NCBI RefSeq assembly: GCF_002283555.1
Contig: NZ_MVOI01000003.1
Span: forward strand, 1,352,798 to 1,416,797
Source of the DNA: Rubrivirga sp. SAORIC476
GTDB lineage: Bacteria > Bacteroidota > Rhodothermia > Rhodothermales > Rubricoccaceae
DNA: 64,000 nucleotides
Direction of reading: 5' to 3'
Shown: positions 43,781-47,375 of the stretch, piece by piece
Layout of the letters: the number at the start of each line of letters is the position of its first letter
Position numbering within the stretch: the stretch's first letter is position 1
Program-made: the position numbers and the translations under genes
The notes under the pieces: generated by a model
Seen by the model: the letters and a program-made list of their open reading frames with translations, nothing else
The model's database searches: none
Told to the model about the DNA's origin: nothing

Positions 43781-45856
43781 ATGCACGCCGCCCCGCCCCG
43801 CCTCCAGACCGCGACGGACACCGTCGACGTGTCCGTCGTCATCGTGACGTACAACGTGCGGGAGTTCCTGGAGCAGGCGCTCCGGTCGGTCGAGCAGGCG
43901 AGCGCGGGGCTGACCGTCGAGACGTTCGTCGTCGACAACGACTCAGCCGACGGCTCGGCGCAGATGGTGCGCGAGCGCTTCCCGGACGTGCGGCTGATCG
44001 CCAACGAGGAAAACGTGGGCTTCGCGACGGCCAACAACCAGGCCATCCGCGAGGCGGCGGGGCGCCACGTGCTGGTCCTCAACCCGGACACGATCCTCCA
44101 GGAGGACACGCTCCGCACGATGGTCGCCTTCATGGACGACCACCCCGAGGCGGGCGCCGTCGGCTGCCGCATCCTCAACCCGGACGGCACCTTCGCGCCC
44201 GAGAGCCGCCGCGCCTTCCCGACGCCCGCGGTCGCCTTCTACCGCATCGCGGGCCTGAGCAAGCTCTTCCCGCAGAGCCCGACGTTCGGCCGCTACAACC
44301 TGACGTACCTCCCGCTCGACGAGGTCTGCGAGGTCGACGCGCTCTCGGGCTCGTGCATGATGGTGCGGCGGGACGCCGTCCTGGGTTCGGAGTCCGATGC
44401 GTCGGCGCCGGGAACGTCGGCGGGCCTCTTCGACGAAGCCTTCTTCATGTATGGGGAGGACCTCGACTGGTGCTACCGGATCCAGCAGGCGGGCTGGCGG
44501 ATCTACTACACGCCGGACACCCAGATCGTCCACTACAAGGGAGAGAGCACCAAGAAGGGCGACCTCCGCTACGTGATGCTCTTCTACGGGGCCATGCTCC
44601 GATTCGTGGAGAAGCACGTGACGCACCGCGAGGGGGCAGGCGTGGCGGACCGGATCGCGTCGGCCCTGCTGGCCGTGGGGCTCCGGCTCGGAATCGTCAG
44701 CCGGGCGGCGCTGGCGGCGCTGGGGCGGGTCGGCCGGGCGGTCTCGGGGCCCGTGGTGGATGGCGCGCTGGCGTGGGCGGCGCTCGCTGCGACGGCCGCG
44801 GCATGGAGCCGCGCCGACGGCTTCACGTTCGAGGCGAGCTACTACGCGTTCGTGCTGCCCGCCTACGCCGCCGTGCTGGTGTCGGCCGTCGGCCTGACAG
44901 GGGGCTACCGTCGGACGGGGCAGTCGCTCCGGCCGGTGCTGGCCGGCGCCGCGCTGGCCGGCCTCGCCGTGGCCGCCCTCGCCTTCTTCGTGCCGACGCT
45001 CGCCTTCAGCCGCGCGGTCGTCGGCCTCGGGCTGGGCGTGGCGGCGGGCCTGCTGCTCGCCCGGCGACTCCGTGGGCGGGCCGCGCGGAGCGCCCCCCGG
45101 CGCGCGCTGCTGGTCGGCGCGGGTGGCGAAGCAGAACGGCTCCAGCGCCTCCTCGACGACCACGCCCGCGGCAGCACGGTCGTCGGCTACGTGGCCGAGA
45201 CCGAGGCGGACGGCACGCTCCCGTGGCTCGGGCGCCCGCGCCAGCTCCGCGACCTCGCCCGCCTTCACGGGGCCAACGACATCGTCTTCGCCTCGGACAG
45301 CCTCACCAACACGGCCATCCTCGATGGCATGCGGGCGCTCCGCGACCTCCCGGTCCAGCTCAAGATCCTCGCCTCGGGCCACGACCGAATCATCGGCAAG
45401 GCGTCCGTGGAGGACTACGCGGCGCCGCTGCAGGCCGCCGAGCGGACCGTCGCGCCCCTCCGCCCGGCGTGGACGCGCCGCGTGGTCGAGGTGCCCGTCG
45501 CGGTGGCGTTCGTGCTGCTCGGCCCCGGCCTTCGGCTGCTGGCGCGGCTCCGCCCCAGCGCGCACCTCACCCGCCTCGGCACGCTGGCAGACCAGATGCC
45601 CGCCGTGCTCGCCGGCCGCCTCGCGCTCGTCGGCTACGACACCGACGGCGCACATCCGCCTCCGGCGTGGGGCCTGCTGCCCGGTGCCGTCTCGGTGCTC
45701 GACACGCGCGGCCCGCGACCCCGCACCATCGCCGAGGCGCATCGGGCGTACTGGTTCTACGCGCGGCATCAGTCCGCATGGCTGGACCTCGACATCCTGC
45801 TCCGCGCCCTCTGGGCCGAGCCGGCCGACGGGCCGACGACCTCGGCCGGAGGCTGA
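43781..45856 (+). CDS. GT2 glycosyltransferase fused to a degenerate sugar-phosphate-transferase-like half
   Basis: A 691-residue protein. Residues 15-285 are a WbbL-type GT2 rhamnosyltransferase-like domain: SVVIVTYNVREFL, VVDNDSADGS, VLNPDTIL (the DxD-like site), GSCMMVRR and FFMYGEDLDWCYR. Residues about 310-450 are four or five membrane helices. Then comes a Rossmann-like strand RALLVGAGGEAERL and a domain like the CoA-binding part of WbaP-type polyprenyl-phosphate sugar transferases. The end keeps the outer parts of the sugar-transferase domain (LTRLGTLADQMPAVLAGRLALVGYD and the terminal WLDLDILLRALW) but lacks the catalytic core. So the C-terminal half is probably non-catalytic. It likely adds a sugar to a lipid-linked glycan at the membrane. 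Confidence 0.8.
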   Translation: MHAAPPRLQTATDTVDVSVVIVTYNVREFLEQALRSVEQASAGLTVETFVVDNDSADGSAQMVRERFPDVRLIANEENVGFATANNQAIREAAGRHVLVLNPDTILQEDTLRTMVAFMDDHPEAGAVGCRILNPDGTFAPESRRAFPTPAVAFYRIAGLSKLFPQSPTFGRYNLTYLPLDEVCEVDALSGSCMMVRRDAVLGSESDASAPGTSAGLFDEAFFMYGEDLDWCYRIQQAGWRIYYTPDTQIVHYKGESTKKGDLRYVMLFYGAMLRFVEKHVTHREGAGVADRIASALLAVGLRLGIVSRAALAALGRVGRAVSGPVVDGALAWAALAATAAAWSRADGFTFEASYYAFVLPAYAAVLVSAVGLTGGYRRTGQSLRPVLAGAALAGLAVAALAFFVPTLAFSRAVVGLGLGVAAGLLLARRLRGRAARSAPRRALLVGAGGEAERLQRLLDDHARGSTVVGYVAETEADGTLPWLGRPRQLRDLARLHGANDIVFASDSLTNTAILDGMRALRDLPVQLKILASGHDRIIGKASVEDYAAPLQAAERTVAPLRPAWTRRVVEVPVAVAFVLLGPGLRLLARLRPSAHLTRLGTLADQMPAVLAGRLALVGYDTDGAHPPPAWGLLPGAVSVLDTRGPRPRTIAEAHRAYWFYARHQSAWLDLDILLRALWAEPADGPTTSAGG

Positions 45857-45937: not shown

Positions 45938-46918
45938 ATGGCTCATCTCCTCGACTTCGAGAAGCCCCTCGCCGACCTCGAGGCCAAGCTCTCCGAGCTG
46001 CGCGCCTTCGAGGCCGAGGACGGCTCCGTCGACCTCTCCGCCCAGGTCGCCGCGCTCGAAACCCGCGTCGACACCCTCCGGCAGTCGATCTACCGCGGCC
46101 TCACGCGGTGGCAGCGCGTGCAACTCGCGCGCCACCCCGAGCGGCCCTACACGCTCGACTACATCGGCGCCCTCACGTCGGGGTTCACCGAACTCCACGG
46201 CGACCGCCTCTTCGCCGACGACCGCGCGCTCGTCGGCGGCCCGTCAACGTTCCGCGGCTCGCGCTACGGCTCCGTCGACCGCGCCGTGATGGTGCTCGGT
46301 CACCAGAAGGGACGCGACACCAAGCAGCGCAAGGAGCGCCGCTTCGGGATGCCCAACCCCGAGGGCTACCGCAAGGCCCAGCGGCTGATGGAGATGGCGG
46401 CCAAGTTCGGCAAGCCCATCATCACGTTCCTCGACACGCCCGGCGCGTACCCCGGCCTGGAGGCCGAGGAGCGCGGCCAGGCCGAGGCCATTGCCCGCAA
46501 CCTGCTCGTCATGGCTCGGCTGCCGGTGCCCATCATCATCGTCGTGATCGGCGAGGGGGCGTCGGGCGGCGCGCTCGGCATCGGCGTCGGCGATCGCGTG
46601 CTGATGCTGGAGAACGCGTGGTACTCGGTCATCTCGCCGGAGTCCTGCTCGTCCATCCTGTGGCGCTCCTGGGACCACAAGGAGGACGCGGCGCGGGCGC
46701 TCAAGTTGACCGCGCCCGACCTCATCCAGCACGCCGTCATCGACGAGATCGTGTCCGAGCCCGTCGGCGGCGCCCACCGCGATCCGGCGGCGACGTTCGA
46801 CGCGACCGGCCGCGCCATCGCGACCCACCTCGACCACCTGCTCGGCCTCGACACCGACGCGCTCCTCGACGGACGCCTCGCCAAGTTCGACGCGATGGGC
46901 TCGTTCGAGGAACGCTAG
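45938..46918 (+). CDS. accA: Acetyl-CoA carboxylase carboxyltransferase subunit alpha
   Basis: A 326-residue protein of normal length. It shows [14 protein letters not shown] at the start, the block [20 protein letters not shown], then [70 protein letters not shown] and [13 protein letters not shown]. These are the oxyanion and biotin-site blocks of the crotonase-fold alpha subunit. With AccD it carboxylates acetyl-CoA to malonyl-CoA for fatty-acid synthesis. The beta subunit is not in this window. Start at the ATG three bases after an exact -7 box. Confidence 0.97.
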
Positions 46919-46973: not shown

Positions 46974-47375
46974 ATGCTGAGCTACGTCCACCGCCACCGC
47001 GTCCGGTACCGCGAGTGCGACCCGATGGGGGTCGTCTACCATGCCCACGTGGTCGACTGGTTCGAGGCGGCACGGACGGAGGCGCTCCGCGAGGCCGGGC
47101 TGCCGTACCGCGAGTTGGAAGAGAGCGGCGTCATCATGCCGGTCGTGGACCTGTCCGTGAAGTACCACGCGAGCGTGTTCTACGACGACCTCGTCGAGGT
47201 GGAGGCGTCGTTTCCGAGCGTCGGCGTGCGGCTGCCGATCGACTACGCGGTGCGCCGGGTCGGTGAGGAGAAGGTGCTCATCTCGGGTCGCGTGACGCTC
47301 TGCTTCGTCGATCGGGAGCGGGGGCGGCCAGTGGCGCCGCCGGACCGCGTGCGGGCTGTCTTCGAACGGGAATGA
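46974..47375 (+). CDS. YbgC-like acyl-CoA thioesterase (4HBT, hotdog fold)
   Basis: A 133-residue hotdog-fold protein. The catalytic-type block is RYRECDPMGVVYHAHVVDWFEAART, in which Asp near residue 18 and the following His match the 4-hydroxybenzoyl-CoA thioesterase site. The later strand VKYHASVFYDDLVEVEASF is also typical. It likely hydrolyses short acyl-CoA or acyl-ACP in the cytoplasm. Its stop overlaps the DUF3052 start by four bases (ATGA), so the two are coupled. It follows accA, which agrees with a lipid role. Confidence 0.88.
   Translation: MLSYVHRHRVRYRECDPMGVVYHAHVVDWFEAARTEALREAGLPYRELEESGVIMPVVDLSVKYHASVFYDDLVEVEASFPSVGVRLPIDYAVRRVGEEKVLISGRVTLCFVDRERGRPVAPPDRVRAVFERE

Follow-up and report, generated by a model that had tools for sequence, protein, structure and literature searches.

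We found that a 691-residue protein with an ATG start, encoded in a window of 64,000 nucleotides (the whole stretch of DNA analysed here) from Rubrivirga sp. SAORIC476, joins a family 2 glycosyltransferase (GT2) with an intact active site to a catalytically dead phosphoglycosyl transferase (PGT) of the WbaP type, which forms its C-terminal half (Table 1). We propose, with a probability of just under one half, that the GT2 extends the product of an intact PGT and that the dead half tethers the GT2 to the membrane, with possible docking of the GT2 to the PGT. Relatives of the gene often lie beside an intact PGT gene, which suggests that the dead half helps hold two glycan-building steps together.

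Table 1. Features of the fusion gene and of the two genes downstream, in positions of the window.
Feature	Positions	Strand	Evidence
Whole gene, GT2 fused to a WbaP-like pseudo-phosphoglycosyl transferase (691 aa)	43781..45856	+	open frame; 49 aligned sequences; model
GT2 catalytic domain, residues about 15-281	43823..44623	+	Pfam; fold match; invariant motifs
Membrane helix bundle, residues about 315-436	44723..45088	+	model; aligns with intact PGTs and WbaP
PF13727 (CoA_binding_3) Rossmann-like domain, residues about 438-531	45092..45373	+	Pfam; structural matches to 3nkl and Rex-type folds
Hairpin region, residues about 532-560	45374..45460	+	model; G539 in 47/49
Re-entrant membrane helix remnant, amphipathic or re-entrant, residues about 561-590	45461..45550	+	PGT-invariant R289 and P305 conserved
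Junction, about 54 catalytic-core residues absent with most of the core's invariant residues	45551..45583	+	profile gap; alignment
C-terminal PGT remnant, short strand-helix tail, residues about 602-680, scaffold residues partly kept	45584..45820	+	profile; structure; alignment
accA, downstream here and in many relatives	45938..46918	+	PF03255 E 3e-137; synteny
Thioesterase, next in the conserved order	46974..47375	+	PF13279 E 6e-15; synteny

A GT2 domain joined to a WbaP-like half

Pfam placed PF00535 (GT2) at residues 18-198 of the fusion protein (E 3e-26) and PF13727 at residues 376-529 (E 7e-10), and listed no Bac_transf domain (PF02397) for it up to E 10. Among 49 aligned relatives, PF13727 was matched in 29, and 13 gave a Bac_transf match at E 0.01, the best at E 1e-19. 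The AlphaFold2 model, computed from the alignment of 49 sequences, had a mean pLDDT of 89.3 and carried helices at residues 288-346, 352-372, 384-403 and 411-436 after the GT2 domain. Confidence was low at residues 541-560 of the hairpin region, which by its position is probably the counterpart of the hairpin that is domain-swapped in the WbaP dimer.

The GT2 half carries D52, N101-P102-D103 and E226-D227, all invariant in 49 of 49 aligned relatives, and we take these motifs to be the DxD equivalent and the ED base. Structure comparison of the model returned GT2 folds in rows from Z 20.5 to 24.6, many of them tied. By its Pfam match, motifs and fold, the N-terminal half thus belongs to the family 2 GT-A class. 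It has the fold and the invariant catalytic motifs in common with solved GT2 glycosyltransferases (WrtF, RmlT, PcManGT and others), whereas the fused pseudo-PGT half is present in the fusion protein and not in WrtF, RmlT or PcManGT.

For the C-terminal half, a profile of the 49 relatives matched solved WbaP chains at E 2e-24 (profile positions 282-645 on chain residues 4-466) and PglC at E 1e-9 (540-646 on 6-182). In both matches the profile positions are fewer than the chain residues, indicating a PGT with its middle missing. When the same profile was compared with 22 intact PGTs by hhalign, the two aligned with a probability of 99.8 and an E-value of 8e-28, and the catalytic segment of the PGTs fell in a gap. 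These 22 PGTs come from the same taxonomic family and were chosen from 30 loci by the D-E motif and by length (430-660 aa), so that the invariance of Asp-Glu among them is by choice; the eight PGTs left out, for length or because of a narrow pattern, also hold the Asp-Glu pair, and the DE-x-P motif is present in these eight and in the operon PGT of locus L059.

Because GT2 matches fill a fold search with the whole protein and are uninformative on the C-terminal half, residues 283-691 were folded alone (mean pLDDT 89.8). WbaP (8t53) was the only Foldseek match at E 0.001 or better, with E 2e-6, a TM-score of 0.28 and an rmsd of 12.5. VIA-align also ranked 8t53 first (Z 12.4, 326 residues aligned, rmsd 11.8) and gave Z 9.0 over 116 residues for PglC 8g1n (rmsd 4.0), values to be read with the proviso that a Z below about 13 may reflect an arrangement widespread among helical bundles. 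Unrelated Rossmann proteins were matched as well, by the Rossmann part, at Z 8-11. The TM-score is low and the rmsd large, which suggests that the domains of the C-terminal half are arranged differently, or have moved, with respect to WbaP. For the homology with WbaP, the sequence profiles are the stronger evidence and the fold matches serve as support.

Compared with WbaP (PDB 8t53, PMC10942596), the fusion has the membrane bundle, PF13727, hairpin region, re-entrant helix and C-terminal strand-helix elements in the same order, but it lacks the catalytic core with its Asp-Glu pair, has an N-terminal GT2 added and superposes poorly (rmsd about 12). The bundle, the PF13727 domain and a re-entrant helix with its proline (45 of 49) place the half in the WbaP-type fold, while the lack of the Asp-Glu pair and of any complete PF02397 found sets the fusion apart from active large monotopic PGTs. 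The accessible part of PMC10942596 also describes Bi-PGTs, in which a second functional domain is fused to a monotopic PGT, and the fusion is like them in joining such a domain to a monotopic PGT. Unlike the active PGT catalytic domain that defines a Bi-PGT, the PGT part of the fusion lacks the catalytic residues; being dead, it leaves the protein with one active site, not two.

The first-pass annotation of this DNA had described a GT2 joined to membrane helices, a CoA_binding_3 domain and the outer parts of a sugar transferase whose catalytic segment was missing. The two Pfam matches and the WbaP profile match agree with this make-up, and the missing segment amounts to about 54 core residues by the hhalign gap and the merged alignment. 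Neither a lack of relation to the sugar-transferase fold nor an intact core was found: 8t53 was matched by both profile and fold, and the Asp-Glu pair is gone.

Loss of the catalytic residues and age of the family

Asp-Glu is the catalytic pair of monotopic PGTs. Of 38 columns invariant in the 22 intact PGTs, we followed the 36 that lie in the PGT part. Asp377 was kept in 2 of 49 fusions and Glu378 in none, the Rubrivirga fusion having neither, and a DE-x-P motif after residue 500 was absent from all 49. K340, R342, M344, R363, T365, G368 and R372 were each kept in 0-2 of 49, P395 in none and R396 in one. Some residues outside the gap were mostly lost too: T424 (11/49), G425 (8/49), Q428 and M390 (6/49 each), T464 (4/49) and R433 (0/49). 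Other invariant residues were kept in most fusions, namely K288 (37/49), R289 (44/49), D292 (41/49), P305 (45/49), G388 (37/49), V393 (38/49), G394 (45/49), G422 (38/49), Y448 and D457 (48/49 each). The invariance of the GT2 residues, the loss of the PGT Asp-Glu pair and the retention of several scaffold residues in 37-48 of 49 relatives together argue for an old pseudoenzyme.

We considered whether the Asp of the catalytic pair survives in the motif LADQMP (D-Q) of the Rubrivirga fusion. The merged alignment sets the PGT Glu against Leu and the Asp against Thr, in agreement with the hhalign gap, and this candidate was rejected. Seven of the 49 relatives (L049, L053, L054, L055, L063, L065 and L107) have 15-27 residues more than the Rubrivirga fusion in the core region, and possibly represent an intermediate state. 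An ancestral fusion of a GT2 with an intact PGT was also sought within the family, and no intact core was seen in eight long-span or odd loci. The longest span among the best rows of the phylum sample, 713 codons in genome G282, likewise held no core on reading.

All nine genomes of the taxonomic family carry the gene, which is full-length in seven, split into two contig pieces in one and cut by a contig end in one. At least a GT2-level match was found in 296 of 296 sampled Bacteroidota genomes, some of them at the GT2 level only, and 131 of the best 150 rows from these genomes span more than 1700 nt. With the full-length copies in the family, these phylum spans and the coreless reading in G282, a gene-model or assembly artefact that hides a core really present is ruled out for practical purposes.

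By their record titles, the best 80 of 236 related loci come from Rhodothermales, Chlorobi-type bacteria, Neomarinimicrobiota, Ignavibacteria, Calditrichota, Saprospiraceae, Chitinophagaceae, Cryomorphaceae, Bacteroidales and others. G303, a genome with a locus titled Neomarinimicrobiota, belongs to a phylum in which matches at E 1e-100 or better occurred in 68 of 80 genomes. On plasmids no full-length match was found, as none of 246 matching records covers 80% of the fusion. In a tree, 24 fusion C-terminal halves lay on one side of a branch with 100/100 support and 21 PGT sequences on the other, one of the latter (L063) being itself without the Asp-Glu pair. One old origin is the simplest reading for the sampled fusions, which appear as one clade in the sample. 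That the dead half arose by duplication of the operon PGT was not supported, as the fusion halves form a separate group on a long branch and are not nested among the operon PGTs. One member of family f17, L122 (G019:C95:105000-107700, 611 aa), has a C-terminal half that is shorter and more degenerate than the rest, and three more f17 rows among the phylum matches listed have a span similar to it.

Another reading sees the C-terminal half as a functionless remnant in decay. Its column conservation is 0.34-0.40 against 0.62 for the GT2, its parts have dN/dS values of 0.29-0.87 against five more distant relatives, where the GT2 has 0.14-0.21, and shortened forms occur in Bacteroidales and in some Chitinophagaceae records. 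However, ten scaffold residues stand at 37-48 of 49 across phyla, internal stops were seen in 2 of the best 150 phylum rows and in 2 of 68 rows of the G303 phylum, and dN/dS against the nearest relative is 0.13 for the GT2, 0.33 for the membrane part, 0.13 for PF13727 and 0.21 for the PGT remnant. Given the scaffold conservation and dN/dS, we reject neutral decay of the C-terminal half as very improbable, less firmly than the gene-model error.

Gene neighbourhood

In the window, the fusion gene lies between a divergent MATE gene and the accA and thioesterase genes, the thioesterase reading as one of the YbgC kind. The first-pass annotation had called it a single gene with no glycan cluster around it, which is true of the window; the missing cluster is local, and many relatives have PGT and synthase-like neighbours. 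Near the fusion, recR was found in 23 of the best 80 loci; for a GH3-like gene the count was 17 and for accA 16, where recR and GH3 were named from sequence by eye and accA is backed by Pfam in the window.

The synthase-like neighbour is a GT2 resembling polyprenol-P-mannose synthases, whose best solved relative is dolichol-P-mannose synthase (E 4e-37). It overlaps the fusion or ends at most 20 nt upstream of it in six loci, and lies 1.2 kb upstream in two more. The gene order PGT, synthase-like gene, fusion and accA was the most frequent among the loci read (L157, L158, L159, L161 and L059), with a DegT aminotransferase between the PGT and the synthase-like gene in two of these. In L156 and L160, one gene separates the fusion from the PGT, the synthase-like gene and accA. 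A full PF02397 was present in six operon PGTs and in the L059 operon PGT.

We then counted linkage in the best rows of the phylum searches, about 150 for each gene, using the genomes that occur in both of the lists compared (98 and 135); as genomes are unequally related, counts of families are given as well. Among the matches listed, the synthase-like gene shared the strand of the fusion and lay at most 100 nt from it in 39 of the 98 genomes; with distances up to 6 kb the number rose to 61 (14 of the 27 named families), and in the other 37 the gene was unlinked. For an intact WbaP-like PGT, the best match had the strand of the fusion and was no more than 6 kb away in 81 of the 135 genomes (18 of the 38 families), and was unlinked in 54, including Rubrivirga, again among the matches listed; this count uses the best match to one PGT, which is not necessarily the orthologue in every genome. 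Short forms of the fusion are included in the 98-genome count, and 13 short-form rows were dropped before the 135-genome count. From genome sizes, we estimate that a given gene would fall within 6 kb by chance in well under 1% of genomes. The search that had been suggested at first pass, for genomes that encode the fusion and, as another protein, an intact WbaP-like enzyme, was positive.

In the Rubrivirga genome itself, the fusion is on contig C3, while the PGT (L002), which groups with the operon PGTs, is on C2 near 27.6 kb and the synthase-like gene (59% identity) on C2 near 359 kb. Four intact Bac_transf proteins are present in this genome.

Proposed role, shortened relatives and operon variants

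Based on gene order and family knowledge for the extension step, and on homology and the parts kept by short forms for the dead half, we propose the following scheme. An intact PGT would make the polyprenyl-PP-sugar, and the dead half would hold the GT2 at the same membrane face as this PGT. The PF13727 domain and hairpin of the dead half, the counterpart of the WbaP dimer interface, would dock the GT2 to the PGT, and the GT2 would then add a second sugar onto the lipid-linked product. In WbaP the dimer interface is formed mostly by the PF13727 domain with a swapped hairpin, according to the accessible part of PMC10942596.

The GT2 might instead act on a polyprenyl-P-sugar supplied by the synthase-like neighbour, and not on the PGT product. 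This gene is often the closest partner, as the counts within 100 nt show, and dolichol-P-mannose synthase is its best solved relative. However, the half fused to the GT2 resembles a PGT, the operon also contains an intact PGT, and most known GT2 extenders act on polyprenyl-PP-glycans, which makes this alternative improbable.

Whether the dead half docks or merely anchors the GT2 is informed by the shortened relatives. Of 21 such forms 19 were tested; L044 and L056, which are cut by contig ends, were left out, and L095 and L111 are also cut. Each was scored with profiles of three C-terminal parts against 950 shuffled decoys. PF13727 was matched above the best decoy (5.0 bits) in 13 of the 19, at 7.0-70.3 bits, several of these matches being weak (7-20 bits). 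The membrane profile exceeded its best decoy (4.5) in seven, two strongly and without PF13727 and five weakly, and the PGT remnant was detectable by this scoring in none of the 19. The tails of the 13 forms that keep PF13727 are 131-165 residues long, and four forms (L101, L105, L108 and L112) stop shortly past the hairpin motif. The GT2 stands alone in L102:1528-2310 and L113:5995-6774, both adjoining recR. As PF13727 is the commonest retained part and carries the dimer interface in WbaP, the part that pairs WbaP chains is the one kept most often. With the PGT remnant undetected in all 19 and the tails too short for a whole bundle, this speaks for docking no less than for anchoring.

A reading in which the dead half is a membrane anchor only, makes no contact with the PGT, and the neighbourhood reflects shared regulation or a shared pathway, is in our view rather unlikely. 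It agrees with the membrane bundle and re-entrant helix kept by full-length forms, with the seven short forms that keep a membrane-profile match, and with a PGT match that is unlinked in Rubrivirga and in the other families of its order among the matches listed for the 135 genomes. However, tails that hold PF13727 and cannot also hold the whole bundle speak against it, and it does not explain why PF13727 and some of the C-terminal remnant have been kept. The earlier suggestion that a sugar transferase had become a membrane platform for the glycosyltransferase holds in part. Homology, catalytic loss and several scaffold residues kept across 49 relatives give good support to a non-catalytic partner of the GT2, but "platform" alone is probably too narrow, because the family is old and widespread, PGT and synthase-like genes are often near, and PF13727 is kept in short forms.

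If a PGT pseudoenzyme acts as the dock, as we propose, this would show a coupling of the first two lipid-linked glycan steps in one membrane complex. The conserved trio of PGT, synthase-like enzyme and fusion also provides candidates for a phylum-wide glycan pathway. In the accessible parts of the sources, the O-glycan core enzymes of Bacteroidota are described as unknown (2022 paper, PMC8729774), the core machinery as unidentified (2025 review, PMC12871550), and the core enzymes as encoded elsewhere than the species-specific locus (2018 paper, PMC6120980); the residual core is given as a hexose with a deoxyhexose (PMC8729774, PMC12871550). The trio could be this missing phylum-wide machinery, with the fusion and an active PGT forming an asymmetric WbaP-like dimer, which we regard as a long shot. 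If true, one half of the dimer would be catalytic and the other a dock, and the first two core sugars would be added in one membrane complex. The fusion is widespread in Bacteroidota beside accA and recR, but it occurs in other phyla too and part of the 296 genomes match at the GT2 level only; the recurring trio is just as compatible with a common pathway for LPS or for exopolysaccharide. In the open-licence literature we found no such fusion, PGT pseudoenzyme, core-glycan candidate or mutant of the family, and this absence is therefore weak evidence.

Several variants were observed in the operons. Directly upstream of the fusion in L063, a WecA-like enzyme (PF00953) is fused to a WbaP half without the Asp-Glu pair (L063:3507-5951), as if the WbaP fold were wanted there even without activity. 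Frames of 827-828 aa occupy the PGT position in four other operons (L162:4620-7103, L163:4526-7009, L165:4716-7199 and L166:3221-5707), and by their length, N-terminal likeness to L063 and motif they resemble double PGTs of the WecA-WbaP kind in which the Asp-Glu pair is intact. A frame of 788 aa that starts like a GT2 and has the PGT motif intact (L168:1572-3938) adjoins the synthase-like gene; it resembles the Bi-PGT arrangement and is perhaps a two-active-site counterpart of the fusion, its GT2 being a putative family member only. Between the synthase-like gene and the fusion, L045 encodes a 420-aa protein, membrane-like by eye (L045:4751-6013), for which no match was found in Pfam or NCBIfam, and L046 has the same spacing. 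Elsewhere in L045, the start of a further frame (L045:11522-13942) resembles what we take to be the RuvC-I region of Cas9, as a look-alike.
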